Below, piece by piece: positions 4,864 through 32,409 of a stretch of DNA of 37,750 nucleotides. The translations under genes and the position numbers were made by a program. Source of the DNA: Candidatus Saccharicenans sp. GTDB taxonomy: Bacteria > Acidobacteriota > Aminicenantia > Aminicenantales > Saccharicenantaceae. Every line of letters starts with the position of its first letter. The stretch's first letter is position 1. Under the pieces are notes generated by a model, which was not told the DNA's origin, did no database searches, and saw nothing but the letters and a program-made list of their open reading frames with translations. Location of the stretch: assembly GCA_030018265.1 (NCBI GenBank), contig JASEFX010000017.1, forward strand, positions 12,304-50,053, read 5' to 3'.

Positions 4864-6212
4864 CATTCGTAAATAACATAGCGATTTCCACCCTGCTCTT
4901 TTGCCCGGTACATCGCTGTGTCAGCCCTCGACACAATGATTTCCATATCTTCCTGCCCGTTGATCATGGAGATGCCAATGCTCAGGTACAGGTTGAATGA
5001 TTTATCGGGCGAATCCGGAATGACAAAACTGCACTGTGAGACCGCCTCCAGGAGTCTGCTGGCGATGATTTCTGCTTCTCTTCTGCCAACTCCGTCCAGG
5101 ATCACCGCAAATTCATCCCCTCCCAGACGTATCAGGCGATCGCTCGAACGAAGCTGCTTTTGAATGATCTTGCCCAGTCTGATTAACAGATTGTCTCCTA
5201 TCTGATGGCCAAAATTATCGTTAACCAGCTTGAAATTGTCGAGGTCGATAAAAAAAAGAGCGCTGGATTTGCCTTCCCGGCTTTCCTGAATCAGCCTGGG
5301 GAGGATGACCTCTAACATCCTTCGGTTGGGCAGTCCGGTCAGCGGGTCGTGAAGCGCCTGAAAAGCCAGCTGCTCCTCATAATTTTTACGTTCTGTGATG
5401 TCGTAGCAGGAACCGATGAGTCCGCCGAACCGGCCCTCCATATCCTGAAACGGTCTTCCCACACACAGCATCCAGCGATACTGGCCGTCACGGTGTCTGA
5501 GGCGGAATTCAACTTCAAACGGTTCCATCCTTTTAAGAGCTCTTTCAAAAATAGCTGTGAATCTTTCCCGGTCCTCTTCCGGAAGAAGCTCAACCCAGCC
5601 CCTTCCTTTTTCTTCGTTCAGCGACCTTCCGGTAAAATTCAGCCAGGCGCGGTTAAAGTAGTCAAACTGACCGTCTGTACGGGCTCTCCAGATCATCGCC
5701 GGGAACTCTTCGAACAGGGTGAGATAAAAGTCATGAGCTTTTTTAATGGTCTTCTCCGCTTCGACGATGGTGGTGATGTCATTCATAATGACCAGAGTGC
5801 TGCGGTGGTTTTCAAAAGGATCCAGGATTTTTTTGATCCGGACCTGAAGCACAACCCGCCCTCTTGCGGATTCAATTTCCCTCGTGAAAATAGTTTCAGG
5901 AGCTGACCCTGAAACCAGTTCCTGAAGAGGTTTAGTCAGCCAGTCGAACACTCTGGAGACCGGCACCTTCATTCCGTAGAACATATCACCAAAGCCAGGA
6001 TGGGGAAAATATTCAAAACAGGCATCATTATAGTCTTCTATGTTGTTATCGAGGTCAAGCAAAAGGGCGGGCGCGGGAACCGAATTGAATATAATCTTGA
6101 ACTTATCTTCTTCTCTCGACCAATCCGGGGTTTTAGATCTGGTGTTGCTGGCAGACCCGGAGGGCTGGCTGAAAATGTTTTTAAATCTTTCCCCCTCGTT
6201 ATCCCAGTACAT
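4863..6212 (-). CDS. PAS-domain diguanylate cyclase (GGDEF)
   Basis: A 449-residue cytoplasmic signalling protein predicted to make cyclic di-GMP from two GTP. Residues about 35-150 form a first PAS-like domain (FNSVPAPALLLDLDNN) and residues about 160-280 a second PAS/PAC (FPAMIWRARTDGQFDYFNRAW ending SCYDITERK). Residues 285-449 are a GGDEF domain with an intact GGDEF motif at 364-368 and an RSSD inhibitory I-site at 355-358, exactly five residues upstream, so product inhibition is expected. There is no transmembrane segment and no EAL domain. The PAS ligand is unknown. It is divergently transcribed from the envelope gene at 6375 and has its own promoter. Confidence 0.93.
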   Translation of the reverse strand: MYWDNEGERFKNIFSQPSGSASNTRSKTPDWSREEDKFKIIFNSVPAPALLLDLDNNIEDYNDACFEYFPHPGFGDMFYGMKVPVSRVFDWLTKPLQELVSGSAPETIFTREIESARGRVVLQVRIKKILDPFENHRSTLVIMNDITTIVEAEKTIKKAHDFYLTLFEEFPAMIWRARTDGQFDYFNRAWLNFTGRSLNEEKGRGWVELLPEEDRERFTAIFERALKRMEPFEVEFRLRHRDGQYRWMLCVGRPFQDMEGRFGGLIGSCYDITERKNYEEQLAFQALHDPLTGLPNRRMLEVILPRLIQESREGKSSALFFIDLDNFKLVNDNFGHQIGDNLLIRLGKIIQKQLRSSDRLIRLGGDEFAVILDGVGRREAEIIASRLLEAVSQCSFVIPDSPDKSFNLYLSIGISMINGQEDMEIIVSRADTAMYRAKEQGGNRYVIYE

Positions 6213-6235
6213 AATTTTACGCCCTGGCTGCTATT

Positions 6236-6264
6236 AAAATAAGAAAAGATTGCCCTGCTGACAA
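6236..6264 (-). promoter_or_regulatory. Sigma-70-like promoter of the diguanylate cyclase gene
   Basis: On the minus strand TTGTCA (6259-6264), a 17-nt spacer and TATTTT (6236-6241) precede the ATG at 6212 by about 24 nt. Confidence 0.45.
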
Positions 6265-6280
6265 TCACCTTCGGAGGTGA
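6265..6280. promoter_or_regulatory. Dyad/operator-like palindrome in a divergent promoter region
   Basis: TCACCT-TCGG-AGGTGA is a perfect 6-bp inverted repeat with a 4-nt centre. It abuts the -35 box of the diguanylate cyclase promoter and lies about 95 nt before the divergent gene at 6375. It could be an operator; as a terminator it would be weak. Confidence 0.35.
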
Positions 6281-6338
6281 ATTTTAAGGTCAAAACTCAC
6301 CCCCGGGCCGGTAACCAAACCATTTGTTTCTTCATCCG

Positions 6339-6355
6339 TATAATTTTTATATAAT
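6339..6355 (+). promoter_or_regulatory. AT-rich promoter region of the LolA-like gene
   Basis: Two perfect TATAAT hexamers (6339-6344 and 6350-6355) lie 20-36 nt before the ATG at 6375. Neither has a convincing -35 at 17 nt, so the assignment rests on the -10 alone. Confidence 0.35.
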
Positions 6356-6374
6356 TGTTAAAAAGGAGGCTGGT

Positions 6375-7106
6375 ATGAAAAACAAAAAGTTACTCATGGC
6401 TGCCCTGACCCTATTTTTAATGGCGATTCTTACTCTGTCGGCGAGTGCTCAGACGGAAAAAGAAATCTTAGAAAACATGATAAAAGCTATGGGTGGAAGA
6501 GAGGCTCTAGCCGCCGTAAAAGACATGAGGGGCACCGGCACCATCGAAATCATTCAATTCGGGATGACCGCTCCTTTCACCTATTACCAGAAAGAACCCA
6601 ACAAATACCGGATGGAATTTGAAGTGATGGGCATGAGTGTGGTCCAGACCTATGACGGAGAAAAAGGGATGTGGATAAATCCCCAGACAGGAGAGATAAG
6701 CGAACTTCCGCCTGATCAGGCCAGACAGATAGCCAAACAGTCCTGGGGAAATGACATTTTTCTCAACCCTGATAAACACGGCGTGACCCACACCTACAAA
6801 GGCAAAGAAGAGGTAAACGGAAAATCCTGCCATGTTCTTGAACAGAAATTCCCTGATGGCGACCGGATCATTTACTACCTGGATTCCAGCAATTATCTCA
6901 TCTACAAAACACGAACTACAGCCACCAGCCCGACCGGCGGAGAACTGGAAGTAGAGATGGTCTTCTCAGATTACAGAAAAATCAACAGGGTGGTGACCGC
7001 TTTTTCCTGGACGATGTTTCAGGGCGGCGCAGAATACGCCAGATTTACTTTGAATGAAGTGGTTTACAACACCGGACTGGATGATTCTCTCTTCGTCCTG
7101 AAATAA
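6375..7106 (+). CDS. LolA-like / outer-membrane lipoprotein-sorting-like secreted protein
   Basis: 243 residues when started at the ATG at 6375, which has an AAGGAGG site 5 nt upstream. A longer in-frame start at 6324 lacks such a site and would bury the signal peptide. MKNKKLLMAALTLFLMA...SASA-QT is a signal peptide with AxA cleavage and no lipobox cysteine. The mature part begins ILENMIKAMGGREALAAVKD, as in many periplasmic LolA/LolB-fold proteins, followed by strands typical of this fold (YRMEFEVMGMSVVQTYDGEKGMW split by turns). Periplasmic lipid or lipoprotein binding is inferred from the fold only. It is monocistronic, with a terminator 31 nt after the stop. Confidence 0.65.
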   Translation: MKNKKLLMAALTLFLMAILTLSASAQTEKEILENMIKAMGGREALAAVKDMRGTGTIEIIQFGMTAPFTYYQKEPNKYRMEFEVMGMSVVQTYDGEKGMWINPQTGEISELPPDQARQIAKQSWGNDIFLNPDKHGVTHTYKGKEEVNGKSCHVLEQKFPDGDRIIYYLDSSNYLIYKTRTTATSPTGGELEVEMVFSDYRKINRVVTAFSWTMFQGGAEYARFTLNEVVYNTGLDDSLFVLK

Positions 7107-7137
7107 CCCTGAAAAATCTTTAAGGAAGGAAAGGAAA

Positions 7138-7170
7138 AACTGGATGAGGGTTATTTACCCTCATCCAGTT
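7138..7170. terminator. Bidirectional intrinsic terminator between convergent genes
   Basis: A perfect 14-bp inverted repeat (AACTGGATGAGGGT / ACCCTCATCCAGTT) has a 5-nt loop. The + strand side continues into TTTTTT and the minus side into TTTTT, so it can serve both the LolA-like gene and fabZ. The stop codon of fabZ lies at the loop. Confidence 0.8.
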
Positions 7171-7600
7171 CATCTTTTTTCATCAGACCGGCCATCAGGC
7201 GGGCTTCGGCAACAACCTTATCTTCAACCAATGCCTCTCCATAAAAATAATAAAAGCCCGCTTTCTGCTTCAGAAGCCGAACTGAAAGCTTCAATTGATC
7301 GCCCGGCACCACCGGTTTCTTGAACCTGGCTTCTTCCACCTTGCTCAACACCAGAAAGACACTTTCCGGGTCCGGCAGCGAATGATAAAGAAGAATTCCC
7401 CCGGCCTGAGCCAGAGCTTCAATGATCAACACTCCGGGCATCAGTTTTACCCGGGGAAAATGGCCGGTAAAGAACGGTTCGTTGTAGGTAACGTTTTTAA
7501 GGGCGAGGATACTCTCACCCGGTTTCAGTTCCAGGACTCTGTCCACCAGAAGAAAAGGGAACCTGTGGGGCAACCACTTTTCGATCTGTTCACTTCTCAT
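7151..7600 (-). CDS. fabZ: 3-hydroxyacyl-[ACP] dehydratase FabZ
   Basis: A 149-residue hot-dog-fold enzyme that dehydrates (3R)-hydroxyacyl-ACP in fatty-acid synthesis. The start matches the family (LPHRFPFLLVDRV). The catalytic His47 lies in GHFPRVKLMPG and the catalytic Glu61 in EALAQAGG. It is the last gene of the lolC-lolD-bamA-skp-fabZ block and begins 11 nt after the skp stop. Its usual partners lpxD and lpxA are absent next to it. I see no strong ribosome-binding site, so coupling to skp translation is likely. Confidence 0.95.
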   Translation of the reverse strand: MRSEQIEKWLPHRFPFLLVDRVLELKPGESILALKNVTYNEPFFTGHFPRVKLMPGVLIIEALAQAGGILLYHSLPDPESVFLVLSKVEEARFKKPVVPGDQLKLSVRLLKQKAGFYYFYGEALVEDKVVAEARLMAGLMKKDELDEGK

Positions 7601-7610
7601 GGCTTTTTAT

Positions 7611-8147
7611 TTATTTAGCCGGAGCCTTGCTGGCATCGTACCTTTTGATAACTTCCTGGGTCAGGTCTACCGCAGGCGAAAAATAAAGCACTCCAGCCTC
7701 CCTCAGGTCCAGGATAAGGTCGAGCCCTTTCTCCTGTCCGAGTTTGTTGATGATCGGCATGACCTCGCTCTGAATCCTCATATAAAGCCTCTGGGTTAGC
7801 TCCTGCATATCTCTCTGGGCATCTTCAGCCATTCTCTGTCTCTCTGTTCTTTTTCGGTCAAGGTCAGCGCTTAGAGAAAGGATGGCTTCCTGAGTCATGG
7901 TAAGCTGCTGGGTGCTGAGCCGGCTTTCCAGCTGACGGATCTGATCATCGAGTTTGGCCAGGTCCTGCTGGATCTTGCGATTTTTTTCTTCCAGCTGGGC
8001 AATAGCTTTTTTGCCCTCAGCCGACTTTTCCAGAATTTCCTGGGAATTAATTACCCCGATCTTAATAGTTTGCTGAGCGCGAGCCATCAGACTGAAGCCA
8101 AGCATCACGGTGACCAGAAGAATAACGATGGTCCATCTTCTGTTCAT
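7611..8147 (-). CDS. skp: OmpH/Skp-family periplasmic chaperone
   Basis: 178 residues with a signal peptide (MNRRWTIVILLVTVMLGFSL, ARA-QQ cleavage). The start of the mature domain, IKIGVINSQEILEKSAEGKKA, is typical of OmpH. A long charged alpha-helical tentacle region spans about residues 45-125, and a C-terminal strand segment (GLDLILDLREAGVLYFSPAVDLT) closes the core. Skp keeps unfolded outer-membrane proteins soluble in the periplasm before BamA inserts them. An AGGAGG site lies 9-10 nt before the ATG. It directly follows bamA. Confidence 0.92.
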   Translation of the reverse strand: MNRRWTIVILLVTVMLGFSLMARAQQTIKIGVINSQEILEKSAEGKKAIAQLEEKNRKIQQDLAKLDDQIRQLESRLSTQQLTMTQEAILSLSADLDRKRTERQRMAEDAQRDMQELTQRLYMRIQSEVMPIINKLGQEKGLDLILDLREAGVLYFSPAVDLTQEVIKRYDASKAPAK

Positions 8148-8220
8148 ATCTCAATTCCTCCTTTTAATTATTGAGTGCTAATTTTACACTTTTCACTGCA
8201 AAATATAAAGACTTGATTCC

Positions 8221-10557
8221 TCAGAAAGTGGTGCCGACCGCGAAGCGGAAGGCGAAGTTGGAATCATCAGCATATATCTTTCTGTTATTATAGGCGAATA
8301 TCAGACGGAACGGCACTCTCAGGGCCGGAACGAACACTCTGAACTCCAGTCCGGCCGAGCTGTACATATTCTTTGGAGAGAACTTATCTCCTTTGAGCAG
8401 CGCATTTCCCACATCATAGAAGAAAATTCCGTAGAGAGGACCGCCCAGCGGGATGATGTATTCAGCATTGATCACCAGGGATTTCACTCCGCCAATCAGG
8501 AAATTCCTTTCGTCACGAGGACCGACGGTGAAATATTCATAACCGCGGATAGATTGCTCACCGCCCAAAAAGAACCTTTCCCAGTAAGGAACCTCCTGGT
8601 TTCTGAGTGGATTTATAAACTGATATTCCACATGAAAACCTAAAACATGGTTGGAAAATAAAGGCTGGTAGCGGGCAAATTCAAAAGCCGGGCGGTAAAG
8701 ATGGACATCGCCTCCGAGAAATGTTCCGGCATAGCGGAAAGAGACTCTGTACATCGTCCCTCTGCTCGGAGTCAGAGGGCTATCTATGGTCGAACTGTAA
8801 AGAATCGGTTCTACCGCGCTCACAAAATATTTTCCCGGATAGAAGTAAGGATTGTAGAAATACACATTGCCCTGTTCATCTTCATAGGTGGGCACCTCCA
8901 GGATCTGTCTCTGGAAGGTGTAATTAAGGTTGAACCTCAGATAGCCGTAAACTCTGGTGCCGTACATCAGGCGGATACCCTTTGCCTGTTGATTGTAAAG
9001 ATAAGGGATGTTATCCTTCCGGTCGAACACGTTGAAACCCAGAGTCATCGGTTTGTCAAAAACGTAGGGCTGACTCATCCCGAAACTGTAATTCTTAACC
9101 CTCTTTCCGTGCTGAAGCGTCAGGTCGAGAGTTTCTCCGCCACCGAGAAAATTCACCGTCGAATAGGTGAAAGCGACAAAGGTTCCCTCATATCCGCTGT
9201 ATCCGGCAGTAAACTGGATGTTGTTCCGCTGCAACTCTCTTACCGTCAGGTTGACATCTATCTGACTAGGATTCTCCGGGTCAGGTTTGATATCAGGCTC
9301 TTTTTCCACGTCGACCAGACCGAGCTGTTTCAGGCGCAGAATGCTGTCCTTGAAGACGGCCAGGCTGAACCGGTCTCCCTCGCGCAGCAGAAATTCTCTC
9401 CTTAAAACTCTGTCCTTGGTGAAAGTATTACCCTTAAACTCAAGCCTCCGCAGATAGGCAACCTCACCCTCATTTACGTTGAAGGTGACGTTAACCACTT
9501 TATTTTTTGGGTCAAGGTTTTCCACCGGAATTATCTGGGCATAAAGAAAGGCAAAATTCCGGTAACTCTCTCCCATCGACTCGACTGTTTTTTCCCGCTT
9601 CTTTGAGCTGTAAATTTCTCCCGGTTGCAGCTTTACCAGGCTCTGCAGGTATCTGGAGGTAAAGAATTTATTGCCCTCTATCTTTATCTCCCCGGTGCGG
9701 TAAACATGGCCCGGCTCGACCGGAATTATTATCCTCATCATCTTTTGCTTGCTGAAAAGAGCGTTCCTCCGGGTTATCTCCTCAAACCGGGGTTCGCCGA
9801 CTGTAGCTTCCATGTAACCGTATTCCTGGAGCTTCTTTTTGATCTGAGCCAGGTTTTCCTCGATCTTACTCTTCTTGAACACGTCCTTATTGGCAATCAT
9901 GTTGAACAGGCTGTGCTGACGGTTCTCTTTCATCGCTTCTATAAGAAAGCTATCCGGGATCTTCGTCCGACCGACAAACACCACCTCACCCACCCTTAAC
10001 CTGGACCCTTCTTCGATCCTGAAAACCAGGTCAACCTCGTTGTTGGGTCTGCTGACCAGCTGGGCTTCTATGCGTTCGGCCTGCAGTCCCTTATCTTCCA
10101 GAAGTTCCTTGATAATTCTCCTGGCTTTCTGAACGCGGTAAGGATTGTAATAGGAGTGAGGGGCAATGTATTCGTCTTTTTCCTTGAGCTTGCTTACGAT
10201 ATCGCTTTCTTTTACTTTCTTACCGGTCCTGAAGACAACACTCTTAATCACCGGATTTTCTTCGACATAGATTTTGACGATTTTGCCGCGGACCCCATTC
10301 TCCTCTTCAATCCTGAGGTTGGCAAAAAATCCGGTCGACCAGAGAACCTTAAAATCTCTTTTCAGAAGGGCTTCGTTATAGTAATCACCCTCCCGCGAAG
10401 ACAGGTAATAAATTATGGTTTCACGGGAGATGCGGTCGTTGCCGTATACTTCAATCCTCTCAATAATTTCCTGAGCGGCAAGAGTACCGACCAGGCTCAG
10501 GATAAAACAAACTGAAAAAAGTACAGGGGCTAAACGTCTTTGTTTTCTCATGGACAT
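8221..10557 (-). CDS. bamA: Outer-membrane protein assembly factor BamA
   Basis: 778 residues, the normal BamA length. A signal peptide ends near LAA-QE (residue 28). Residues about 30-420 hold five POTRA repeats, starting at IIERIEVYGNDRISRETI. Residues about 430-778 form the Omp85 barrel, with the loop-6 motif IRGY at 670-673 and a terminal Phe (VGTTF). BamA folds and inserts beta-barrel proteins into the outer membrane. ATG codons at 10557 and 10551 are both possible starts. Neither has a ribosome-binding site, and a strong promoter ends 3 nt before the first, so the mRNA may be leaderless. Confidence 0.95.
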   Translation of the reverse strand: MSMRKQRRLAPVLFSVCFILSLVGTLAAQEIIERIEVYGNDRISRETIIYYLSSREGDYYNEALLKRDFKVLWSTGFFANLRIEEENGVRGKIVKIYVEENPVIKSVVFRTGKKVKESDIVSKLKEKDEYIAPHSYYNPYRVQKARRIIKELLEDKGLQAERIEAQLVSRPNNEVDLVFRIEEGSRLRVGEVVFVGRTKIPDSFLIEAMKENRQHSLFNMIANKDVFKKSKIEENLAQIKKKLQEYGYMEATVGEPRFEEITRRNALFSKQKMMRIIIPVEPGHVYRTGEIKIEGNKFFTSRYLQSLVKLQPGEIYSSKKREKTVESMGESYRNFAFLYAQIIPVENLDPKNKVVNVTFNVNEGEVAYLRRLEFKGNTFTKDRVLRREFLLREGDRFSLAVFKDSILRLKQLGLVDVEKEPDIKPDPENPSQIDVNLTVRELQRNNIQFTAGYSGYEGTFVAFTYSTVNFLGGGETLDLTLQHGKRVKNYSFGMSQPYVFDKPMTLGFNVFDRKDNIPYLYNQQAKGIRLMYGTRVYGYLRFNLNYTFQRQILEVPTYEDEQGNVYFYNPYFYPGKYFVSAVEPILYSSTIDSPLTPSRGTMYRVSFRYAGTFLGGDVHLYRPAFEFARYQPLFSNHVLGFHVEYQFINPLRNQEVPYWERFFLGGEQSIRGYEYFTVGPRDERNFLIGGVKSLVINAEYIIPLGGPLYGIFFYDVGNALLKGDKFSPKNMYSSAGLEFRVFVPALRVPFRLIFAYNNRKIYADDSNFAFRFAVGTTF

Positions 10558-25196: not shown

Positions 25197-26711
25197 TCAA
25201 CACTGGAGATTTTTCAGATAATTATCGATGGCCAGGGCCGCTCTTCGACCATCTCCCATCGCCAGGATGACCGTCGCTCCTCCCCTAACAGCGTCGCCGC
25301 CGGCATAAACGCCATCCAGAGAAGTAGCCATCGTCCGGTAATCCACCTCGACATTGCCCCAGCGGCCGAGTTTCAAACCAGAAAGCTGTTTTATCAGCAG
25401 GGGATTCGGACTCTGACCGATGGCCACCACCGCCAGGTCAACCTCCACTTCAAACTCAGAGCCAGGGATCGGCACCGGTCTCGGCCTTCCTGATGAGTCA
25501 GGCTCTCCCAGAGCCAGCCTCTGGAGAACCATCCCGGCCAGTCTTCCCCGCCCGTCGTCTATGAACCTTACCGGCACCACCAGAAAATTGAATTTTACTC
25601 CCTCTTCTTCCGCGTGTTTGATTTCCTCCGCCCGGGCCGGCATTTCTGCCCTTGTCCGGCGGTAAAAAATCCCGGCGATTTGGGCGCCAAGCCGGACTGC
25701 AGTTCTGACGGCGTCCATCGCCACATTACCGCCTCCGATCACCGCCACCCGGCGCCCGCGGGGAACCGGCGTGTCATAATCAGGGAAGGCATAACCTTTC
25801 ATCAGGTTTACCCGGGTCAGATATTCGTTGGCAGAATAAACTCCGGTTAGATTTTCTCCGGGAACATTCATAAAAGAGGGCAGCCCGGCTCCGGTACCCA
25901 GGAAAAAAGACCTGTATCCAGCTTCCCTGAGATCATCCAGTGAGGCAGTCTTTCCGACAATGAAATTTGCCCTGATTTCTACCCCGAGCGACCTGACATA
26001 GTTTATCTCGGCCTGAAGAATTTCCCTGGGCAGGCGAAACTCCGGAATCCCGTAAGCCAGAACTCCACCCGGAAGATGCAGCGCTTCAAAAATGGTTACC
26101 CGGTATCCCAGCCGGGCAAGGTCTGAAGCCGCGGTCAACCCTGCAGGTCCCGAACCTATCACAGCTATTTTCTCGCCGCCAGCACAAACTTCATTCACCT
26201 GTCTTTCCTGGAAATTGCGGTCTTCGCGCAGGCAGAGATAATCCGCGACAAACCTTTCTAGATTTCCGATGGCCACAGGCGGTTTTCCGGCCCGGCCCAG
26301 GTTGCAGTTTTTCTCGCACTGGACCTCCTGCGGACAGACTCGCCCGCAGATGGCCGGAAGGCTGTTTGTCTCCCTTATCTTTTCCAGCGCTTTCTCCAGC
26401 TCTCCGACCTCAATATATTTTATGAAGGTTGGAATATCGATGGCGACCGGGCATCCGGAGACGCAACCGGGGTTACCGCAATCAAGGCAGCGTCTGGCTT
26501 CAGCCATGGCAAGCTCGAAAGAATAACCGAGATTTACTTCCCGGAAATTTTTTATTCTTTCTTCTGGCGGCTGTTCGGGCATCGGCTGCCTCTCAATGGT
26601 AAGCCTCTTCTGCACCGAAAGCTGGCGCCGGAGGGCTTTTCTCCACTCCTTCTCCCTTTCCGCCTGCCACCTGGCCGCCAGCCCAGGTTCGATTTTCTCG
26701 CCCTTTTTCAT
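25197..26711 (-). CDS. nfnB: NfnB-like large subunit of NADH-dependent ferredoxin:NADP+ oxidoreductase
   Basis: 504 residues. An N-terminal two-[4Fe-4S] domain has C75, C78, C83, C87 and C122, C126, C132, C136 (CGRVCPQEVQCEKNC). FAD binding follows (GSGPAG 186-191), then GGVLAYGIPEFRLP, the NAD(P)-binding GGGNVAMD (326-333) and RRTRAEMPAR (351-360). This fold is shared with the glutamate synthase small subunit (GltD). The NfnB call rests on the adjacent nfnA (4-nt overlap) and the absence of a GltB gene. In characterised NfnAB the large-subunit FAD is the bifurcating site and NADPH binds here. The roughly 40-residue N-terminal extension is longer than I expect for NfnB. Confidence 0.88.
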   Translation of the reverse strand: MKKGEKIEPGLAARWQAEREKEWRKALRRQLSVQKRLTIERQPMPEQPPEERIKNFREVNLGYSFELAMAEARRCLDCGNPGCVSGCPVAIDIPTFIKYIEVGELEKALEKIRETNSLPAICGRVCPQEVQCEKNCNLGRAGKPPVAIGNLERFVADYLCLREDRNFQERQVNEVCAGGEKIAVIGSGPAGLTAASDLARLGYRVTIFEALHLPGGVLAYGIPEFRLPREILQAEINYVRSLGVEIRANFIVGKTASLDDLREAGYRSFFLGTGAGLPSFMNVPGENLTGVYSANEYLTRVNLMKGYAFPDYDTPVPRGRRVAVIGGGNVAMDAVRTAVRLGAQIAGIFYRRTRAEMPARAEEIKHAEEEGVKFNFLVVPVRFIDDGRGRLAGMVLQRLALGEPDSSGRPRPVPIPGSEFEVEVDLAVVAIGQSPNPLLIKQLSGLKLGRWGNVEVDYRTMATSLDGVYAGGDAVRGGATVILAMGDGRRAALAIDNYLKNLQC

Positions 26712-27559
26712 CTCCGCTCACCCCGCTTTATCCAGAATTCGCTCTCCACTCTAGCCAGTGCTTTTTCTTCTTCGCGCAAAAAAGCTTTCCGGCGATCGAA
26801 ATACTCAACCCAGTCGAGTTCTCTTCCGTCAAACCAGGGTCCGTCGACGCAGGCAAAAAACGTCCGGCCGCCGACAGAAACCCGGCAGGCGCCGCACATT
26901 CCGGTTCCGTCAACCATGATCGGGTTAAGGTTCACCATGGTTTTAAGCCCGAGGCGGGCGCCGGCTTCAGAGATCCTGAAAAGAAGATAGCTGCAGCCGA
27001 TAACCAGAATTGCGGAAATCTCTGCCTGCTCACGTTTTATCCTCGCCATCAACCCGCCAAGTTCTTCTCCCGCTTCCAGGCAGTCCTGCCGGAAAAACTC
27101 CACAAATCCATCGGAATATCTCTTGATTCTTTCCACCCAGTAAAGAAAAGCCGGGCTCCTGGCTTCAGCTAAAAAAATTACCCGGTTGCCTCTTTCTTTA
27201 AGTTCTCTGGCCAGCGGATAAAGTCCGCCGATTCCATAACAACCTCCGACCAGAAGGACGGTTCCAGAAACCGGCAAATCCGGCGAACGGCCGAGCGGAC
27301 CGGCCACACCCTCCACCAGATCTCCTTCCCGCAGGCTGGCAAGCTTTCTGGTGCTTGCGCCCAGATTAAGAAAAACTACCTCAACCGTTCCTCTTTCCCG
27401 GTCCCAGTCAGCGACGTTCAACGGAATTCTTTCTCCCCGGCTGTCAGGAATGACCATCAAAAACTGTCCGGCTCTGGCCGAAACGGCCACCTCCGGCGCT
27501 TCCAGCACCAGCCGGTAAACATTCGGGACGAGCCTTTCGGAAACCAGCACCCTGTTCAT
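26708..27559 (-). CDS. nfnA: NfnA-like small subunit, FAD/[2Fe-2S] NAD(H)-binding protein
   Basis: A 283-residue ferredoxin-NADP-reductase-fold protein of the NfnA / sulfide dehydrogenase / PyrK group. It has an FAD-binding region ERIPLNVADWD, NAD-binding GGCYGIGGLYPLARE and a C-terminal [2Fe-2S] site VDGTGMCGACR...FFACVDGP with C222, C225 and C237. An upstream Asp (217) is the probable fourth ligand; one Asp plus three Cys is known for Nfn. Its ATG overlaps the stop of the NuoG-like gene by 4 nt, and its stop overlaps the nfnB ATG by 4 nt. Confidence 0.88.
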   Translation of the reverse strand: MNRVLVSERLVPNVYRLVLEAPEVAVSARAGQFLMVIPDSRGERIPLNVADWDRERGTVEVVFLNLGASTRKLASLREGDLVEGVAGPLGRSPDLPVSGTVLLVGGCYGIGGLYPLARELKERGNRVIFLAEARSPAFLYWVERIKRYSDGFVEFFRQDCLEAGEELGGLMARIKREQAEISAILVIGCSYLLFRISEAGARLGLKTMVNLNPIMVDGTGMCGACRVSVGGRTFFACVDGPWFDGRELDWVEYFDRRKAFLREEEKALARVESEFWIKRGERR

Positions 27560-30036
27560 TGTTTAACCTTAATCGTAGCGCTAATACTTCCTTGATTGTA
27601 TAGTTTCACCTTAACCGAATCATCAAGAATGGGGAAAATCACCCCGCATCCGGGAAAGAGCTCCGGACTTAACCTGACTTCCAGCTCGAGCCTGCAGTCC
27701 CCAGTTTCGAGAAAAACCTTCTGCCCTTCCTCAAACCCGAGAGAACGAGCCTGAGCTTCATTCAGCCAGAGCCAGTCAGGATCGCTGATTGCCCGGAAAC
27801 TCTCCATCTCACGAGCAAAACTCACCCCGGAATAAACGTCGAGGTTGCGACCGACGATAATCGTAATACTGCCAGAATCGGTAGCCGGGAAACCACCTTT
27901 TTCCGGCTCTTCCGCCGCCGGCGGAAACGGCAGATAGGAAGCGGTAAATTCTTTTTCCGTCATTTCTTCTTTTAAGTAAAATTCCGGATGGGATGCGGTC
28001 TCGCTCAACCTGACCGGGATTCTCTCTGCCAGATTGTTTAATATTTCCTCATTCGTCATATTCCTCTGCCTTAATTCCTGTTTGCCGGAATCAATTTTCT
28101 TAAACCTTCCTGTCGCATCTACAACCAGGGTATTTTCCTCGATAAACGTGGCTGATGGTAGATAGACGTCAGCGAGCCCGACTTCTGCTGTCTGAAATGG
28201 TTTCTGCACCACCAGAAATTCCGGCTTTCTCCTCAGCGCAAGATCTCCAAGAACATAGAGGAATTTAATCTTTCCCGCCTCTATCATCCGGTCAATTTCT
28301 TCCAGGCTTTCCAGCACTCTTAACTTAAATTTCTTTTTAAGCCTTTCGGCCAGAAAGCCACCGGCTGCTGCCTGAACCGGCAAAAGCCTGGCTTCAAGTT
28401 TTAAGGCGAGATTCCAGAGAGCGGTTAAATTTTCTCCCGCGGCCGGCTGACGGAGGAACCTTTCTCCAAAAAGAAAGAGCGACGGACTGGAAGAGAGAAG
28501 CAGGTCGGCGGCCTTTTTTACTTTTTCCGGCTGAAGACCAGCTTCCCTGACCGCCCGGTCAACAGAAATTTCTTTGAGCCTTTCTAAAAATTCAGGATAA
28601 CCGCGATAAAAACTCAGCCCGGGCGCCGCCGTCAGCACCGTCCTGGTTATCGCCAGAAGCGCCAGGGCTTTTTTCTCCGGATGACATTTAAGATAAACGT
28701 CAGCCGTCCGGGCTGATCGGTTGAGCCCGGAATCCAGCACCAGCAATCTGGCTCCGCTGTTCAGGGATTTCTTAATCTCCAGCCAGAGGGTCAGACCTTC
28801 CGAAAGAATATCCAGATCAACCAGGAAGAAGCTCTGAAACTTCGGCAACTCTTCCAGGTTGAGCCGGCGAACGATGCTTATTCCCAGCCGCTCTTCTAAA
28901 TCAGACAGCTTTCCATAAAAATCTCCGGGAGCCAGGTAAAAAAGATTTTTCACTCCGAGAGCTTCAGCCAGCGAATAAAAAGCCAGAAGGCTTCGAGCCG
29001 CGGCCAGGCCGGCAGAAACAAAAGCTATCTCTTCTGGCTTATACTTTCTGATTGCCTCAACCACAGCCGCCAGCGCCCGTTCCCGGGAAGAGTGGCTCTG
29101 CCGGCCGTTCTGCCGGAGGAGAGGGCTGGATGGTGGAAGCCGCCGGTTGAATACTTCCCTAAAGCCAAAACGTCCACGGGCGCAGGCCGCCCCGGGGGAA
29201 GCTGGCTTTATCCTTCTTATCGAGCCATCTTCGTAGAATTCCGCTCGAAGCTCACAGGCCGAGCTGCATAGCTGACATATGAATGATTGTTCATATATTG
29301 AGTCTGCGGCAGCGGGGTAAACTCCCCTTTCGCTGAAGGCCGCCACCGGACAGACATCAAGGCAGGCGCCGCAGAAGCTGCATCCGGATTCCCGCAAACC
29401 GCGGTGGAAGAAGGTGTCAACAGCGATATTTTCTCCCCGTCCGGAAAAGGTCAGAACGTTTTCTCCCCGGAGCTCGGCGCAAGCTCTAAGGCATCTTCCG
29501 CAGGTAATGCAGAGATTCGGGTTGTGAATTATAAAGGGGTCGGATAACCACAGCTGGCGGTTTCTGTCTTTATAATCATAGGGAATTCTTTTTATCTTCA
29601 AATACTCAACCACTTTCTGCAGCTCGCAGTCTCCGTCGCGCGGGCAGAAAACGCAGCCGCCAGTCTCCAGGGCTCTGGCCATGGTCACTTTAAGTTCCTT
29701 ACAGACGTTCTTTTCCTGGCAGGCAAGACAGAAATAAGGATGTTCGCTCAGTATCAGTTCCAGGATAGCTCTTCTGAGTTCTTCCAGCTCGGGTGAACTG
29801 GTGATTATCTCCAGGCCTTCTTCCACCTTAACCTGACAGGCGGGCAAAGGCTGCGGTTTACCGTAAATCTCCACCAGACATAACCGGCAGGCAGTCCGGA
29901 CCGGAAGTCCTTCCAGATAGCAGAGCGCCGGGATATAAATTCCGTTCTTTCTGGCGCACTCCAGCACGGTCATCCCGGGCTTCGCTTCCAACATCCGGTT
30001 GTTGATTTTAATCCTGACTTTATCCACCGAACTCAT
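27556..30036 (-). CDS. NuoG / formate-dehydrogenase-like iron-sulfur molybdopterin-fold subunit, no visible catalytic residue
   Basis: 826 residues from the ATG at 30036; a GTG at 30045 overlaps the nuoF-like stop. Numbered from that GTG: [2Fe-2S] C42, C53, C56, C70; HPYFCLACQEKNVC (H102, C106, C109, C115) and CVFCPRDGDCELQ (C131, C134, C140); two [4Fe-4S] sets at 179-189 and 222-232; a molybdopterin-type [4Fe-4S] with C257, C260, C264, C288. Residues 300-829 have the molybdopterin oxidoreductase fold, with ADVYLPSATFIEE and a C-terminal dinucleotide-binding-like domain. I see no Cys/Sec-His active-site pair and no hydrogenase H-cluster motifs. It probably relays electrons as NuoG does, or binds an unknown partner. 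Confidence 0.85.
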   Translation of the reverse strand: MSSVDKVRIKINNRMLEAKPGMTVLECARKNGIYIPALCYLEGLPVRTACRLCLVEIYGKPQPLPACQVKVEEGLEIITSSPELEELRRAILELILSEHPYFCLACQEKNVCKELKVTMARALETGGCVFCPRDGDCELQKVVEYLKIKRIPYDYKDRNRQLWLSDPFIIHNPNLCITCGRCLRACAELRGENVLTFSGRGENIAVDTFFHRGLRESGCSFCGACLDVCPVAAFSERGVYPAAADSIYEQSFICQLCSSACELRAEFYEDGSIRRIKPASPGAACARGRFGFREVFNRRLPPSSPLLRQNGRQSHSSRERALAAVVEAIRKYKPEEIAFVSAGLAAARSLLAFYSLAEALGVKNLFYLAPGDFYGKLSDLEERLGISIVRRLNLEELPKFQSFFLVDLDILSEGLTLWLEIKKSLNSGARLLVLDSGLNRSARTADVYLKCHPEKKALALLAITRTVLTAAPGLSFYRGYPEFLERLKEISVDRAVREAGLQPEKVKKAADLLLSSSPSLFLFGERFLRQPAAGENLTALWNLALKLEARLLPVQAAAGGFLAERLKKKFKLRVLESLEEIDRMIEAGKIKFLYVLGDLALRRKPEFLVVQKPFQTAEVGLADVYLPSATFIEENTLVVDATGRFKKIDSGKQELRQRNMTNEEILNNLAERIPVRLSETASHPEFYLKEEMTEKEFTASYLPFPPAAEEPEKGGFPATDSGSITIIVGRNLDVYSGVSFAREMESFRAISDPDWLWLNEAQARSLGFEEGQKVFLETGDCRLELEVRLSPELFPGCGVIFPILDDSVKVKLYNQGSISATIKVKQ

Positions 30037-30041
30037 CAACC

Positions 30042-31934
30042 TCACTCACCCTGGACTTTAACTTTTTTCCGGGGAATCTTCCTCACCGCTGAAAACATGT
30101 CCTGACAGACAGAGTAACAGACTCCGCAACCGGTGCAGATATTCACATCAATCTTCAGGTAACCATCTTCCATCTCCACGATGCCATCCGCCGGGCAGGA
30201 TTCCAGGCAGAGCCGGCAGAGAGCGCATTTAGAGCTGTCTATCTCGTAGGAGACAAGTGCCCGGCATACCCCCGCCGGACATTCGTTTTCGATCAGATGT
30301 TTTTCAAGTTCTTCCCTGAAATACCGGAGAGCGCTCAGAACAGGATTGGGCGCGGTGCGGCCGAGACCGCAGAGCGAAGCTTCCTTCATCGTCCGGCCGA
30401 TCCTTTCCAGCAGGTTCAGGTCTTCTATATCGCCACGACCATCCACCATCTTTTCCAGTATGTCCACCATTCTGGCCGTCCCGAGCCGGCAGGGAGCGCA
30501 CTGACCGCATGACTCATCCCGGGCGAATTTCAGATAATAAAGAGCCAGGTCAACGATGCAGGTGGAATCGTCGATGACGATCAACCCGCCGGAGCCCATT
30601 ATCGTTCCCGCTTGCTGCAGGCTTTCGTAGTCAATCGGCAGGTCAAAGCGGGAAGCCGGCAGAAGACCGCCGGAAGGTCCGCCCGTCTGAACCGCTTTTA
30701 TTATTTTCCCGCTGGCCGGGCCGCCGCCGATTTCCTCCACCACCTCGCTCATCCTGATTCCAAGAGGAACTTCCACCAGACCGGTCCGTCGAACCTGACC
30801 CACGAGCGAAAAAATCTTTGTCCCACGGCCGGTTGGACTTCCCACCCTGGCAAACCAGGCCGGGCCTTCTTTGATGATCGGGGGAATGTTCGCCCAGGTT
30901 TCCACATTGTTGATCACTGTCGGCCGTCCCCACAACCCCTTAACCACCGGGAATGGCGGTCTCTGGCGGGGAAAAGGCCTTCTTCCTTCGATGGAGGCAA
31001 TCAGGGCGGTCTCCTCGCCGCAGACAAAAGCGCCGGCGCCTCTGACCAGTTCGAGCTGAAAAGAAAAACCGCTGCCGAGAATGTTCTCGCCGAGCAAGCC
31101 CGCCTCCCTGGCTGAAATCAGCGCTTTTTCCATCCTTTCGATCGCCAGCGGATATTCTTCTCTTACATAGACAAAACCTCTGGTTGCGCCGACGGCGTAA
31201 CCGCCGATGATCATCCCTTCCACTATGCTGAAGGGGTTGCTTTCCATAAGTCCTCGATCCATGTAAGCGCCTGGATCCCCTTCGTCTCCGTTGCAGATAA
31301 GATACTTTTCCTCCCCCGGCGCTTCTCTGGCCAGCCGCCACTTCAACCCGGTGGGGAACCCGGCTCCTCCGCGTCCTCTGAGACCGGAAGCCAGAACGAG
31401 ATTTACTACTTCTTCAGGAGATATTTCAAAAAGCGCTTTCTCCAGCGCCCGGAAGCCATCATGTTGAACATAACCATCAAGACTCTCAGGGTCGAGGGTA
31501 AAATGCCTGTCAAGGAGGCGTCGAACCTGCTTCTTAAGAAAAGGAAGATCCTCCAGGTAAGGAAATATTTTCCCGTCAGCATCTTCGGAATAAACCAGCC
31601 CGGGAACAATTTTCCCGCCGATGAGGGTATCTTCCACCACCCGAGGAACTTTTTCCGGAGTGAGATTCGGGTAGAAGATTTTCTCGGGGAAAATTACTGC
31701 GTCCGGCTCAAACTGACAGAAACCATGGCAGCCGGTCACCCGAAGCTCGACGGAATCTTCAAGCCCGCGCTTTTCTATCTCACGCTCGAAAGCCTCAATC
31801 ACTTCCACCGCGCCGGCCGCCCGACCGCAGCTGGCAGCGGAAACGCTCACCAGATGTCTTTTCCGGCTCGAGGAGAGAAGATGTTCACGGTAGTTTCTAA
31901 GATCAGGAAGCGAGCGGAACCTTCTTTTATTCAT
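30042..31934 (-). CDS. NuoF/HydB-like NADH-binding flavoprotein subunit
   Basis: 630 residues from the ATG at 31934, which overlaps the nuoE-like stop by 8 nt (TTG at 31961 is less likely). Domains: thioredoxin-like [2Fe-2S] (C36, C69, C73; only three Cys visible), FMN/NADH domain (GRGGAGFPTGLKW 187-199, CNGDEGDPGAY), SLBB, [4Fe-4S] N3-type C476, C479, C482, C522, a CPAGVC motif (552-557) resembling the HydB zinc hinge, and a C-terminal two-[4Fe-4S] ferredoxin domain (570-580, 600-610). This layout equals HydB of trimeric electron-bifurcating hydrogenases rather than complex I NuoF, which lacks the C-terminal ferredoxin domain. Confidence 0.92.
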   Translation of the reverse strand: MNKRRFRSLPDLRNYREHLLSSSRKRHLVSVSAASCGRAAGAVEVIEAFEREIEKRGLEDSVELRVTGCHGFCQFEPDAVIFPEKIFYPNLTPEKVPRVVEDTLIGGKIVPGLVYSEDADGKIFPYLEDLPFLKKQVRRLLDRHFTLDPESLDGYVQHDGFRALEKALFEISPEEVVNLVLASGLRGRGGAGFPTGLKWRLAREAPGEEKYLICNGDEGDPGAYMDRGLMESNPFSIVEGMIIGGYAVGATRGFVYVREEYPLAIERMEKALISAREAGLLGENILGSGFSFQLELVRGAGAFVCGEETALIASIEGRRPFPRQRPPFPVVKGLWGRPTVINNVETWANIPPIIKEGPAWFARVGSPTGRGTKIFSLVGQVRRTGLVEVPLGIRMSEVVEEIGGGPASGKIIKAVQTGGPSGGLLPASRFDLPIDYESLQQAGTIMGSGGLIVIDDSTCIVDLALYYLKFARDESCGQCAPCRLGTARMVDILEKMVDGRGDIEDLNLLERIGRTMKEASLCGLGRTAPNPVLSALRYFREELEKHLIENECPAGVCRALVSYEIDSSKCALCRLCLESCPADGIVEMEDGYLKIDVNICTGCGVCYSVCQDMFSAVRKIPRKKVKVQGE

Positions 31935-32409
31935 CGTTTCTGGTCTGTAGTTTTCCTGCAATTTCCGACAGCTGATCAGCTCTGACCCGGCCGAAATACT
32001 TTCCGTTGACCACCACCACCGGAGCCAGCGCGCAGCAACCGAGGCAGCTAACCGTCTTCAAACTCACCCCTTTTTCCGGCTTTTCCTGACCTGACTTCAT
32101 TCCCAGAAGCCTGGTCAATTCCTCCACCAGCCGGGATGAACCGCGCAGATGGCAGGCCGTGCCCTGACAGACTGTTATCTCATTTTTAGAGCCCGGCTCT
32201 GTTCTGAAAGCCGAATAAAAAGTCACCAGACCATAGATCTCGGACACCGGAACGGCAAAATATTCCGCCGCCATCCTCTGAGCTTCTTCCGTCACCCAGC
32301 CAGTTTCCCGCTGCACCCGATGCAGGAAAAGCATCAGGTATCTTTTCTCTGGCGGCAGGACACTCAGAAGAGCTCTGACTTTTTCTCTTTCCTCTTCCTT
32401 ATCTTTCAT
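31927..32409 (-). CDS. NuoE/HydC-like [2Fe-2S] thioredoxin-fold subunit
   Basis: 160 residues from the ATG at 32409. The N-terminal helical bundle (YLMLFLHRVQRETGWVTEEA, IYGLVTFYSAF) and the [2Fe-2S] ligands C81, C86 (CQGTAC) and C122, C126 (CLGCC) are canonical for NuoE, HydC and HndA. It partners the NuoF/HydB-like subunit. The start overlaps the amidohydrolase gene by 11 nt; a start at 32439 would deepen the overlap. No strong ribosome-binding site is visible, so translation may depend on the upstream gene. Confidence 0.92.
   Translation of the reverse strand: MKDKEEEREKVRALLSVLPPEKRYLMLFLHRVQRETGWVTEEAQRMAAEYFAVPVSEIYGLVTFYSAFRTEPGSKNEITVCQGTACHLRGSSRLVEELTRLLGMKSGQEKPEKGVSLKTVSCLGCCALAPVVVVNGKYFGRVRADQLSEIAGKLQTRNDE

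Follow-up and report, generated by a model that had tools for sequence, protein, structure and literature searches.

A five-gene operon of Candidatus Saccharicenans that joins Bfu-type subunits to NfnB and an altered NfnA

Introduction

Enzymes of the Nfn-Bfu/Stn kind have been described without NfnA (Schut 2022; Kumar 2023), and the latter study stresses that Stn is devoid of NfnA and Nfn of HydBC. In StnC, the NfnB-like domain holds a non-bifurcating FAD (PMC10482914). P. furiosus NfnII has lost NAD(H) activity and may use another acceptor (PMC6405883). Within the Bfu family, the C476 site is variable, being Thr in about two thirds, and the B2 residues (His and Cys) are absent from non-bifurcating homologues (PMC9304861).

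Here we analyse a 37,750-nucleotide stretch of DNA from Candidatus Saccharicenans sp. (the window), in which an operon unites NfnA and HydBC-type subunits, a combination that recurs under many lineage labels. It raises the questions of whether two mechanistically different bifurcation sites can share one enzyme, and of how an NADH-binding flavoprotein becomes an internal electron relay. The original prediction knew of no characterised enzyme of such composition, and no description of the five-subunit form turned up in the literature searched; StnABC/Nfn-Bfu is a close characterised relative, and a prior listing of such operons is possible in supplementary tables, which lay outside that search. 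Given the gene content, synteny, gene fusions and residue changes observed, we lean slightly towards the reading that the products of the five genes assemble into a single soluble complex, an electron-bifurcating transhydrogenase of the Bfu family in which NfnA would bridge BfuA and NfnB instead of using NADH. For such a complex we propose the name 'Type 3 Nfn-Bfu'.

Results

The five genes occupy positions 25197-32409 of the window on the minus strand, in the order BfuC, BfuB, BfuA, NfnA, NfnB. Three of the operon junctions are 4-nt overlaps; BfuC and BfuB overlap by 8 nt if BfuB begins at its ATG (31934) and by 35 nt with the upstream TTG, and an alternative BfuA start is an ATG 5 nt past the end of BfuB, in agreement with the 4-8 nt overlaps or 5-nt gap of the original prediction. 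RNase HII and an AlaX-like gene flank the operon downstream, an amidohydrolase upstream. On either side, the neighbouring genes searched in the window have no redox function and include no complex I membrane-arm subunits, as had been predicted; together with the ferredoxin tail of BfuB, this led us to reject a complex I N-module. The NfnA and NfnB of the operon are the only ones found in the window genome (90.6% complete), NQR2/RnfD/RnfE (Rnf-type) gave no match there, and the operon is the only Nfn-type link between NADPH, NADH and ferredoxin found in it.

Conserved synteny across genomes was a check set beforehand, and it came out strongly in favour of a lasting association. Among 396 genomes of the phylum, 39 BfuA matches besides the window were fetched; 34 of these 39 loci contain the complete set of five, and each of the remaining five is located at the end of a contig. 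A second scan, of named genomes, placed a BfuA-like subunit directly upstream of NfnA in 16 of 80 NfnA loci, under eleven further lineage labels. Three loci were fetched twice (L180/L229, L147/L231 and L156/L225), and L145 of the named scan and L040 of the phylum set, whose contigs are equally long and which are joined by zero-length branches in the BfuB tree, are probably one contig. In six loci (L070, L155, L162, L163, L175 and L236) BfuA and NfnA are fused into one protein. The predicted fold of the L155 fusion divides into two halves, one NuoG-like and one NfnA, with a TM score of 0.91 to 5jca_S (on target); confidence in the model is low around the FeS clusters (pLDDT <50 for residues 97-102 and 109-127), and pTM is 0.63. 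The genes are still together after rearrangement in L180 and L068. Partial arrangements also occur: L156/L225 has BfuCBA-NfnA with no NfnB behind, and L064 has BfuA but no BfuB or BfuC within the preceding 6.9 kb.

Synteny and fusions together rule against chance neighbours. It had been left open whether the genes form one supercomplex or two co-expressed machines; one complex is favoured over two independent machines because of the natural BfuA-NfnA fusions. That BfuABC and NfnAB are separate enzymes which are only co-transcribed seems to us very improbable. Standalone NfnAB is common, it is true (156 of the 396 phylum genomes have an NfnA match, linked or unlinked), and BfuABC is known with other partners, but a mere co-transcription is hard to square with the fusions, with an association kept through rearrangement and with the NfnA residues, described below, that co-segregate with linkage.

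BfuC (31927..32409, minus strand; 160 aa) is NuoE-like, with one thioredoxin-like [2Fe-2S] domain (PF01257, 2Fe-2S_thioredx, 3.3e-42) whose Cys 91, 96, 132 and 136, numbered from the upstream TTG (ORF P0005), are present in 37/37 aligned linked BfuC. BfuB (30042..31961, minus strand; TTG at 31961, likely start ATG 31934) is HydB-like by its domain matches and by its best solved relative, 7t2r_B (7e-215). It comprises an N-terminal thioredoxin-like domain, a 51K FMN/NAD(H) domain, SLBB (scoring slightly below the Pfam cut-off), NADH_4Fe-4S and a C-terminal tail of two [4Fe-4S] ferredoxin clusters, which bears out the HydB layout predicted for the NuoF-like subunit. The Pfam domains found are those that we take to correspond to the InterPro entries that PMC9304861 names for Bfu. 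Of the B2-cluster ligands, C468, H555, C561 and C566 are kept and the equivalent of C476 is V506; the N-terminal [2Fe-2S] (B5) region has three Cys (45, 78, 82) with the first shifted, like T. sibiricus 9n5u_B. The domain set of BfuB, the thioredoxin-like [2Fe-2S] domain of BfuC and the B2 residues thus agree in placing the pair in the Bfu family. L146 and L150 were omitted from the BfuB alignment and tree for their split frames; in this quick tree, the linked BfuB do not all fall in one clade, and a single origin is not resolved.

BfuA (27556..30045, minus strand; 829 aa) is NuoG-like, with Fer2, NADH-G, Fer4 clusters and a degenerate molybdopterin domain. Its motifs correspond to a [2Fe-2S] cluster, a His-Cys3 cluster (A3/N5), an extra CxxCx5C, two ferredoxin-type [4Fe-4S] clusters and an N7-type cluster. 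Residues 102-140 (29626..29742, minus strand) read as A3 (H102-C106-C109-C115) followed by the extra C131-C134-C140, and the A3 and extra cysteines are present in 40/40 linked BfuA from the phylum (the window's own among them) and in 56/56 once the genome-contig set is added (47 by pattern, 9 by eye). Equally constant in the phylum (40/40) are C106, C109 and C115 of A3 and C257, C260, C264 and C288 of A5, His102 having been read in the window; these BfuA counts leave out L073, which is a second Bfu in its own genome, and L064. With A3 and A5, as we assign them by motif, and the adjoining NfnAB subunits, the operon falls under Type 3 Bfu.

The partner subunit had been predicted to lack an H-cluster, and Fe_hyd_lg_C (PF02906) indeed has no match in BfuA, nor any in the window genome; a bifurcating hydrogenase (HydABC) is rejected on this ground. 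The NCBIfam FeFe-hydrogenase models match the N-terminal Fe-S part of BfuA only, far below their cut-offs. A formate dehydrogenase identity of the window BfuA is likewise rejected (TIGR01591, 80 bits where the cut-off is 666). The predicted absence of a hydrogenase holds for the window and needs qualifying beyond it: in 10/56 loci, all of one subgroup, an Fe-only-hydrogenase-like protein (PF02906, Fe_hyd_lg_C plus Fe-S) and a CBS/HATPase protein adjoin the operon, and H2, or else a redox sensor, could be involved there.

None of the three solved NuoG-like chains aligned, 7t2r_A included, has the extra CxxCx5C motif. In alignments to solved chains, its place is the one at which an NfnB-like domain is inserted in StnC-type chains; BfuA itself has no match to Pyr_redox_2 or Fer4_20, and the NfnB domain is not fused within it. 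This shared position, and the precedent of the non-bifurcating FAD in StnC, suit a complex with a single bifurcation site, in which NfnAB would be an NADP(H) input/output module only, like StnABC with its NADP module in separate subunits. We consider this rather unlikely, since StnC has Lys for Glu and no NfnA, whereas linked NfnB invariably keeps both bifurcation residues, almost no site separates it from other Nfn, and NfnA is present with its [2Fe-2S] motif retained.

NfnB (25197..26711, minus strand; 504 aa) is canonical, with two [4Fe-4S] clusters, FAD and an NADP(H) site (Fer4_20 and Pyr_redox_2 domains; TIGR01316, 588 bits against a cut-off of 472; 4ylf_B, 5e-166). Both motifs, GRVCPQExQC and EFRLP with its Arg, are present. 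Glu129, at the proximal-cluster ligand position (GRVCPQE; 26325..26327, minus strand), is Glu in 52/52 linked NfnB, so that the Lys characteristic of Stn is nowhere seen among them, and Arg226 (EFRLP; 26034..26036, minus strand), which corresponds to the flavin-N5 residue R201 of P. furiosus, is Arg in the same 52/52. Compared with 43 unlinked NfnB, linked NfnB (L160 left out) differ at one weak site only. Because NfnB keeps these bifurcation hallmarks, two active flavin bifurcation sites are possible.

NfnA (26708..27559, minus strand; 283 aa) belongs to its family by PRK06222 (276 bits, cut-off 220) and has FAD and a DHODB-type Fe-S domain with an Asp/Cys3 [2Fe-2S] motif (DGTGMCGxCR...CV with the Asp ligand). 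Judged by its residues, it is a non-standard NfnA with an altered NAD(H) site. In the alignment, Cys107 (27239..27241, minus strand) stands where the GGGxG nucleotide loop has its third Gly and Cys189 (26993..26995, minus strand) where the VGP loop has its Pro, and Arg157 breaks TDDGS; the ERxPxT strand, with its Thr at FAD N5, reads ERIPLN here and has T, S or N in the other linked rows. Cys107 and Cys189 are found in 39/39 linked NfnA of the phylum set (window included) and 0/39 unlinked, and outside that set in 15/16 linked against 0/64 other NfnA, always in the same rows and never singly. The phylum counts leave out L050, a fragment of <200 aa, and L064, which has no NfnA at its contig end. 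In the tree, 54/55 linked NfnA rows form one clade (SH-aLRT 99). The outlier in residues is L160 (a Chloroflexi MAG): the NfnA of its operon keeps a canonical NAD site, and its A subunit scores as a true formate dehydrogenase. Since all linked NfnA of the main clade that were examined have a rebuilt NAD(H) site, NfnAB here is probably unable to run the ordinary Nfn reaction alone. The last two genes had been predicted to be NfnAB: for NfnB this stands, whereas the picture of a complete second bifurcating enzyme has to change on account of NfnA.

What might the paired cysteines do? The idea that an NfnA cysteine is the fourth ligand of the extra BfuA cluster is weakened by L062 and L146, in which the BfuA insert has a further Cys alongside the NfnA pair. 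A second candidate is a reaction of NfnA with another substrate at the rebuilt site, for instance a disulphide via the Cys pair, so that the complex would link NADP(H), NAD(H), ferredoxin and this substrate. Two ever-paired cysteines could make a redox dithiol, NfnII, too, is without NAD(H) activity and may use another acceptor, and the cysteine-type NfnA of L226 has no A-subunit gene within 7 kb of it. Nonetheless we deem it unlikely, because the fusions of A subunit and NfnA and their near-constant adjacency point to an internal partner, and the recurrent neighbours over the 56 loci (RNase HII in 20, acetyl-CoA hydrolase/transferase in 10, an alanine dehydrogenase/PNT-like gene in 9, and the hydrogenase-like and CBS proteins noted above in 10) include no general operon neighbour and no obvious disulphide partner. 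The neighbour comparison was swamped by antisense frames, and these counts come from the readable clusters.

Discussion

How might electrons move through a Bfu-family complex bridged by NfnA? We envisage that NAD(H) would react at the BfuB FMN and ferredoxin at the BfuB tail, with BfuA serving as an iron-sulphur wire whose entry port carries the extra cluster motif. The third substrate, NADP(H), would enter via the separate NfnAB module. NfnA would have lost hydride exchange with NAD(H), its FAD and the Cys pair at the nicotinamide place relaying electrons between BfuA and NfnB, and NfnB would bind NADP(H) at its flavin, where the hallmarks of bifurcation are preserved. The likely physiological direction would be the joint use of NADH and reduced ferredoxin to reduce NADP+. 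If NfnB also took ferredoxin electrons, two confurcation steps might run in series, consuming about 1 NADH plus 6 ferredoxin electrons for every 4 NADPH formed.

A tentative extension, which we hold to be possible though not the likelier outcome, is that one enzyme holds two bifurcation centres of different type in series, the Bfu FMN/Fe-S centre and the Nfn FAD, with NfnA as a FAD/Cys-pair bridge. Bifurcation at both flavin sites, and the role of the NfnA cysteines, are inferred. Were this so, a ferredoxin-rich mix would drive NADP+ reduction, with a mean donor potential of about -445 mV versus -390 mV, and elsewhere, in other organisms, formate dehydrogenases would have been coupled to this NfnAB module. 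In L227, a full formate dehydrogenase alpha is paired with a cysteine-type NfnA and NfnB; the A subunits of L160 and L227 pass the TIGR01591 cut-off. We further predict that NfnAB-like annotations in anaerobes include a recognisable class without NADH use at NfnA, for which the NADH:NADPH:ferredoxin stoichiometries of metabolic models may consequently be wrong.

Among known systems, StnABC/Nfn-Bfu Type 1 (Sporomusa ovata; Thermococcus sibiricus) shares the BfuBC core, a NuoG-like A subunit and an NfnB-like NADP(H)-FAD module, and likewise connects NADH, NADPH and ferredoxin. It differs in that the NfnB-like domain lies inside the A subunit, with Lys for Glu in StnC, and that an NfnA homologue is missing (PMC10482914), whereas the window operon has a separate, canonical NfnB and an NfnA. 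NfnAB (Thermotoga maritima, P. furiosus NfnI) shares both protein families, the cluster motifs and the Glu and Arg of NfnB; by comparison, the GGGxG, TDDGS and VGP loops of the window NfnA are changed, and nearly all cysteine-type copies are tied to a Bfu operon or another A subunit. P. furiosus NfnII/Xfn (5vj7) is an NfnA relative whose NAD-binding region is likewise altered and which shows no NAD-dependent activity, yet it keeps the Pro of VGP, lacks the Cys pair and, in the part of its description consulted, has no Bfu partner (PMC6405883). In NiFe-Bfu (HydABCSL, 7t2r) and other Type 3 Bfu, extra catalytic subunits similarly feed BfuABC via A3; those of NiFe-Bfu are a NiFe hydrogenase rather than NfnAB, and its A chain is without the extra motif. 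Bam-Bfu, finally, has been proposed to unite a BfuABC module and another bifurcation module in a single complex (PMC9304861), although that module is of the HdrA type and the substrate is benzoyl-CoA.

A Contiguous Bfu-Nfn Operon

On the reverse strand of the window, 25197-32409 is occupied by five open reading frames that follow one another without gaps: BfuC (NuoE-like), BfuB (HydB/NuoF-like, with a ferredoxin tail carrying two clusters), BfuA (NuoG-like) and the Nfn-type subunits NfnA and NfnB. These identities are consistent between Pfam and NCBIfam, and the five-gene BfuCBA-NfnAB operon of the original prediction is borne out. Among solved structures, BfuB is nearest to 7t2r_B (7e-215), NfnA to 5jca_S and 4ylf_A, and NfnB to 4ylf_B (5e-166). 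Upstream, a predicted amidohydrolase gene (PF07969; 32399-34186) ends shortly before BfuC begins; the genes downstream of the operon encode RNase HII and an AlaX-like protein. In the window genome (assembly 90.6% complete), no further copy of NfnA was found at E 1e-20 or of NfnB at 1e-15, and neither PF03116 (NQR2/RnfD/RnfE) nor PF02906, the FeFe hydrogenase domain, had a match; PF00374, for the large subunit of NiFe hydrogenase, matched above cut-off over two partial regions about 70 positions long. Judging by gene content, the host may be an Aminicenantes-like member of the Acidobacteriota.

Conservation of Gene Order

With BfuA as query (E 1e-60), 37 of 396 genomes of the phylum gave matches at 40 places including the window, and the other 39 were retrieved with their flanks. 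NfnA follows BfuA in 38 of these 39 loci, the exception being L064, whose BfuA reaches the contig end. The complete set is found in 34 of the 39, which answers the call for a synteny check across genomes. All five incomplete loci (L040, L050, L051, L057 and L064) lie at contig ends, and this accounts for their missing genes save BfuB and BfuC of L064, which are also absent from the 6.9 kb preceding BfuA. An additional locus with all five genes, L104, was reached via the NfnA search. When named genomes were scanned with NfnA, a BfuA-like subunit lay immediately upstream of NfnA, or was fused to it, in 16 of the best 80 loci (from at least 594 pattern rows), one of them probably the L040 contig again. 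Their labels comprise Desulfobacteraceae, Desulfocapsaceae, Desulfobulbaceae, WOR-3, Bacteroidales, Planctomycetota/Phycisphaerales, Hydrogenedentes, Opitutales, Chloroflexi, Thorarchaeota and Methanothrix. Gene order is rearranged within the cluster in L180 and in L068, where BfuCB follows NfnAB, and the NfnA of L156 (Methanothrix label) has no NfnB behind it.

A Rebuilt NAD(H) Site in NfnA

NfnA proteins encoded next to a Bfu-type A subunit (linked) are distinct at the NAD(H) site. Relative to P. furiosus NfnI (5jca_S), Cys107 of the window protein replaces the third Gly of GGGxG and Cys189 the Pro of VGP; we take these loops, from the FNR fold, to lie side by side above the flavin. Both cysteines are present in all 38 aligned linked NfnA of the phylum (window included) and in L104, and neither in 39 unlinked ones; 39/39 linked proteins have Arg in place of the TDDGS Asp, and Trp52 is invariant among them versus 0.03 in the unlinked. 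Within the named set (best 80 of at least 594), both cysteines occur in 15 of the 16 linked rows, L160 excepted, and the pair in none of the remaining 64 (63 unlinked, and L220 with an NfnAB close to a Stn-type cluster); the 15 have also lost the TDDGS Asp, with varied replacements. Either cysteine on its own was found in none of these phylum and named rows. A single clade of a quick tree (SH-aLRT 99) holds 54 of 55 linked rows, with L160 outside.

NfnA matches at 1e-40 were found in 186 of 241 sampled genomes of the class of L144. Fourteen of these loci were chosen non-randomly, among the first entries listed and on large contigs: five (L233-L236, L247) are linked and have the cysteine pair, and nine (L237-L245) are unlinked with a canonical site. 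A cysteine-type NfnA is also encoded at L226 7138-8070, in a Methanothrix-labelled MAG, with no NfnB or Bfu gene in 16 kb of sequence.

According to passages of PMC6405883, NAD(H) binds at the NfnA FAD, and NfnII, whose NAD domain is altered, lacks NAD-dependent activity. A less likely alternative to the rebuilt NfnA site serving as a passage for electrons from BfuA would be that it accepts another substrate instead of NAD(H).

BfuA and NfnA form a single reading frame in L070, L155, L162, L163, L175 and L236. The L070 fusion, from the window's own phylum, has a full-length BfuA, and those of L155, L162, L163 and L175 have a short one of about 555 residues; in L155 and L070, Pfam places Fer2, Fer4, molybdopterin and DHODB Fe-S domains within one protein. 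Because the NfnA tree groups L070 with L065 and L068, which are unfused, and places the short fusions elsewhere, fusion likely arose in at least two events. An AlphaFold2 model of the natural L155 fusion (mean pLDDT 79.6, pTM 0.63) has a poorly modelled FeS insert and an unreliable mutual placement of its halves; in Foldseek, its NfnA half is matched by 5jca_S (TM 0.91 on target) and the remainder by NuoG/HydA/FDH chains.

Conserved NfnB and an Extra Motif in BfuA

Linked NfnB retains both the GRVCPQE Glu and the EFRLP Arg in 52/52 cases, and one site was found that discriminates these, weakly, from 43 unlinked rows. StnC differs, according to parts of PMC10482914, in having Lys at the Glu position and an Arg shifted away from flavin N5, and its FAD is considered non-bifurcating. 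A Stn-like version of the complex with a single bifurcation site would be a less likely rival, and this retention speaks against it.

BfuA carries C106-C109-C115 and then C131-C134-C140 in 40/40 aligned linked proteins of the phylum, and the extra motif is found in 56/56 linked BfuA of the phylum and named sets (47 by a pattern including His, nine by eye). Alignment of the solved chains 7t2r_A, 9bov_A and 8oh5_C to BfuA is interrupted exactly at this motif, where the two Stn-type chains among the three have an inserted NfnB-like domain. In the Schut 2022 scheme, Type 3 enzymes have their entry port at A3 (PMC9304861, in part). We infer that the extra motif would extend the wire in the direction of NfnAB.

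How Might Electrons Reach NADP+?

In BfuBC, NAD(H) is coupled to ferredoxin and to a third couple; NfnB connects NADP(H) with two branches, one of low potential leading to ferredoxin and one of high potential running via NfnA. Because the NfnA NAD(H) site is rebuilt, NfnA can be fused to BfuA and NfnB is ordinary, we envision that the simplest arrangement would pass electrons from BfuA through NfnA to NfnB. From in vivo potentials of -280 mV (NADH), -380 mV (NADPH) and -500 mV (ferredoxin) given in part of PMC9304861, our own arithmetic yields a mean donor potential of -390 mV for a single Bfu or Nfn step and -445 mV for two in series; owing to the latter value, two serial steps would favour NADP+ reduction and make the reverse unlikely.

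Variant Loci and Recurrent Neighbours

At L227 6274-12498, in a Methanothrix-labelled MAG, a formate transporter, a true alpha subunit of formate dehydrogenase (850 bits on TIGR01591, cut-off 666) that also carries the extra BfuA-type motif, a cysteine-type NfnA and NfnB stand in series, with no BfuBC near the cluster; this is possibly a formate-linked Nfn complex. A Chloroflexi MAG has the operon's gene order at L160 2767-10252, but its A subunit is a true formate dehydrogenase alpha, and its NfnA, outside the main clade, keeps the canonical NAD site. L073 (G000:C50:88000-103000) 5192-9886 is the second Bfu set of its genome, comprising BfuC, a 680-aa BfuB, a short 227-aa BfuA and a 525-aa protein resembling glutamate synthase (PF01645), a composition suggesting a Bfu enzyme with glutamate/2-oxoglutarate as third substrate, a pair absent from those named in the sections of PMC9304861 covered here. 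In some five-gene operons BfuB has an added GltD/NfnB-like domain of about 400 aa (L047 3726-6992; L151 925-4062; L154 3155-6292; L163 3097-6333, confirmed by Pfam; L236 1454-4684), which may give these complexes a second NAD(P)H-FAD site.

Among 56 loci compared for neighbours, 20 have an RNase HII gene near the operon and 10 have one for an acetyl-CoA hydrolase/transferase, and in nine an alanine dehydrogenase/PNT-like gene recurs near BfuC (L041 11392-12552; relatives in L042-L044, L046, L048-L050 and L058). A subgroup of 10/56 has an Fe-only-hydrogenase-like protein (Fe_hyd_lg_C and Fe-S domains) with a CBS/HATPase protein beside the operon (L104 855-2950; also L053, L063, L065-L070 and L072), in several cases immediately before BfuC. 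The pair, a feature of relatives and not of the window, may represent hydrogenase-type redox regulation, and a role in hydrogen or redox sensing is possible.

Relation to Known Bifurcating Complexes

No BfuABC+NfnAB complex is described in the paper listings and openings of abstracts searched, or in passages of PMC11406978, PMC5736913, PMC7483475 and PMC8965080. Within this coverage the combination would be new relative to the described Nfn-Bfu/Stn forms. In Schut 2022, Nfn-Bfu belongs to Type 1 and has the NfnB-like domain fused in BfuA (PMC9304861, in part), whereas the operon has NfnB as a separate gene. It also brings together NfnA and BfuBC, whereas Stn is without an NfnA homologue and Nfn without a HydBC homologue in the account of Kumar 2023 (PMC10482914, in part).
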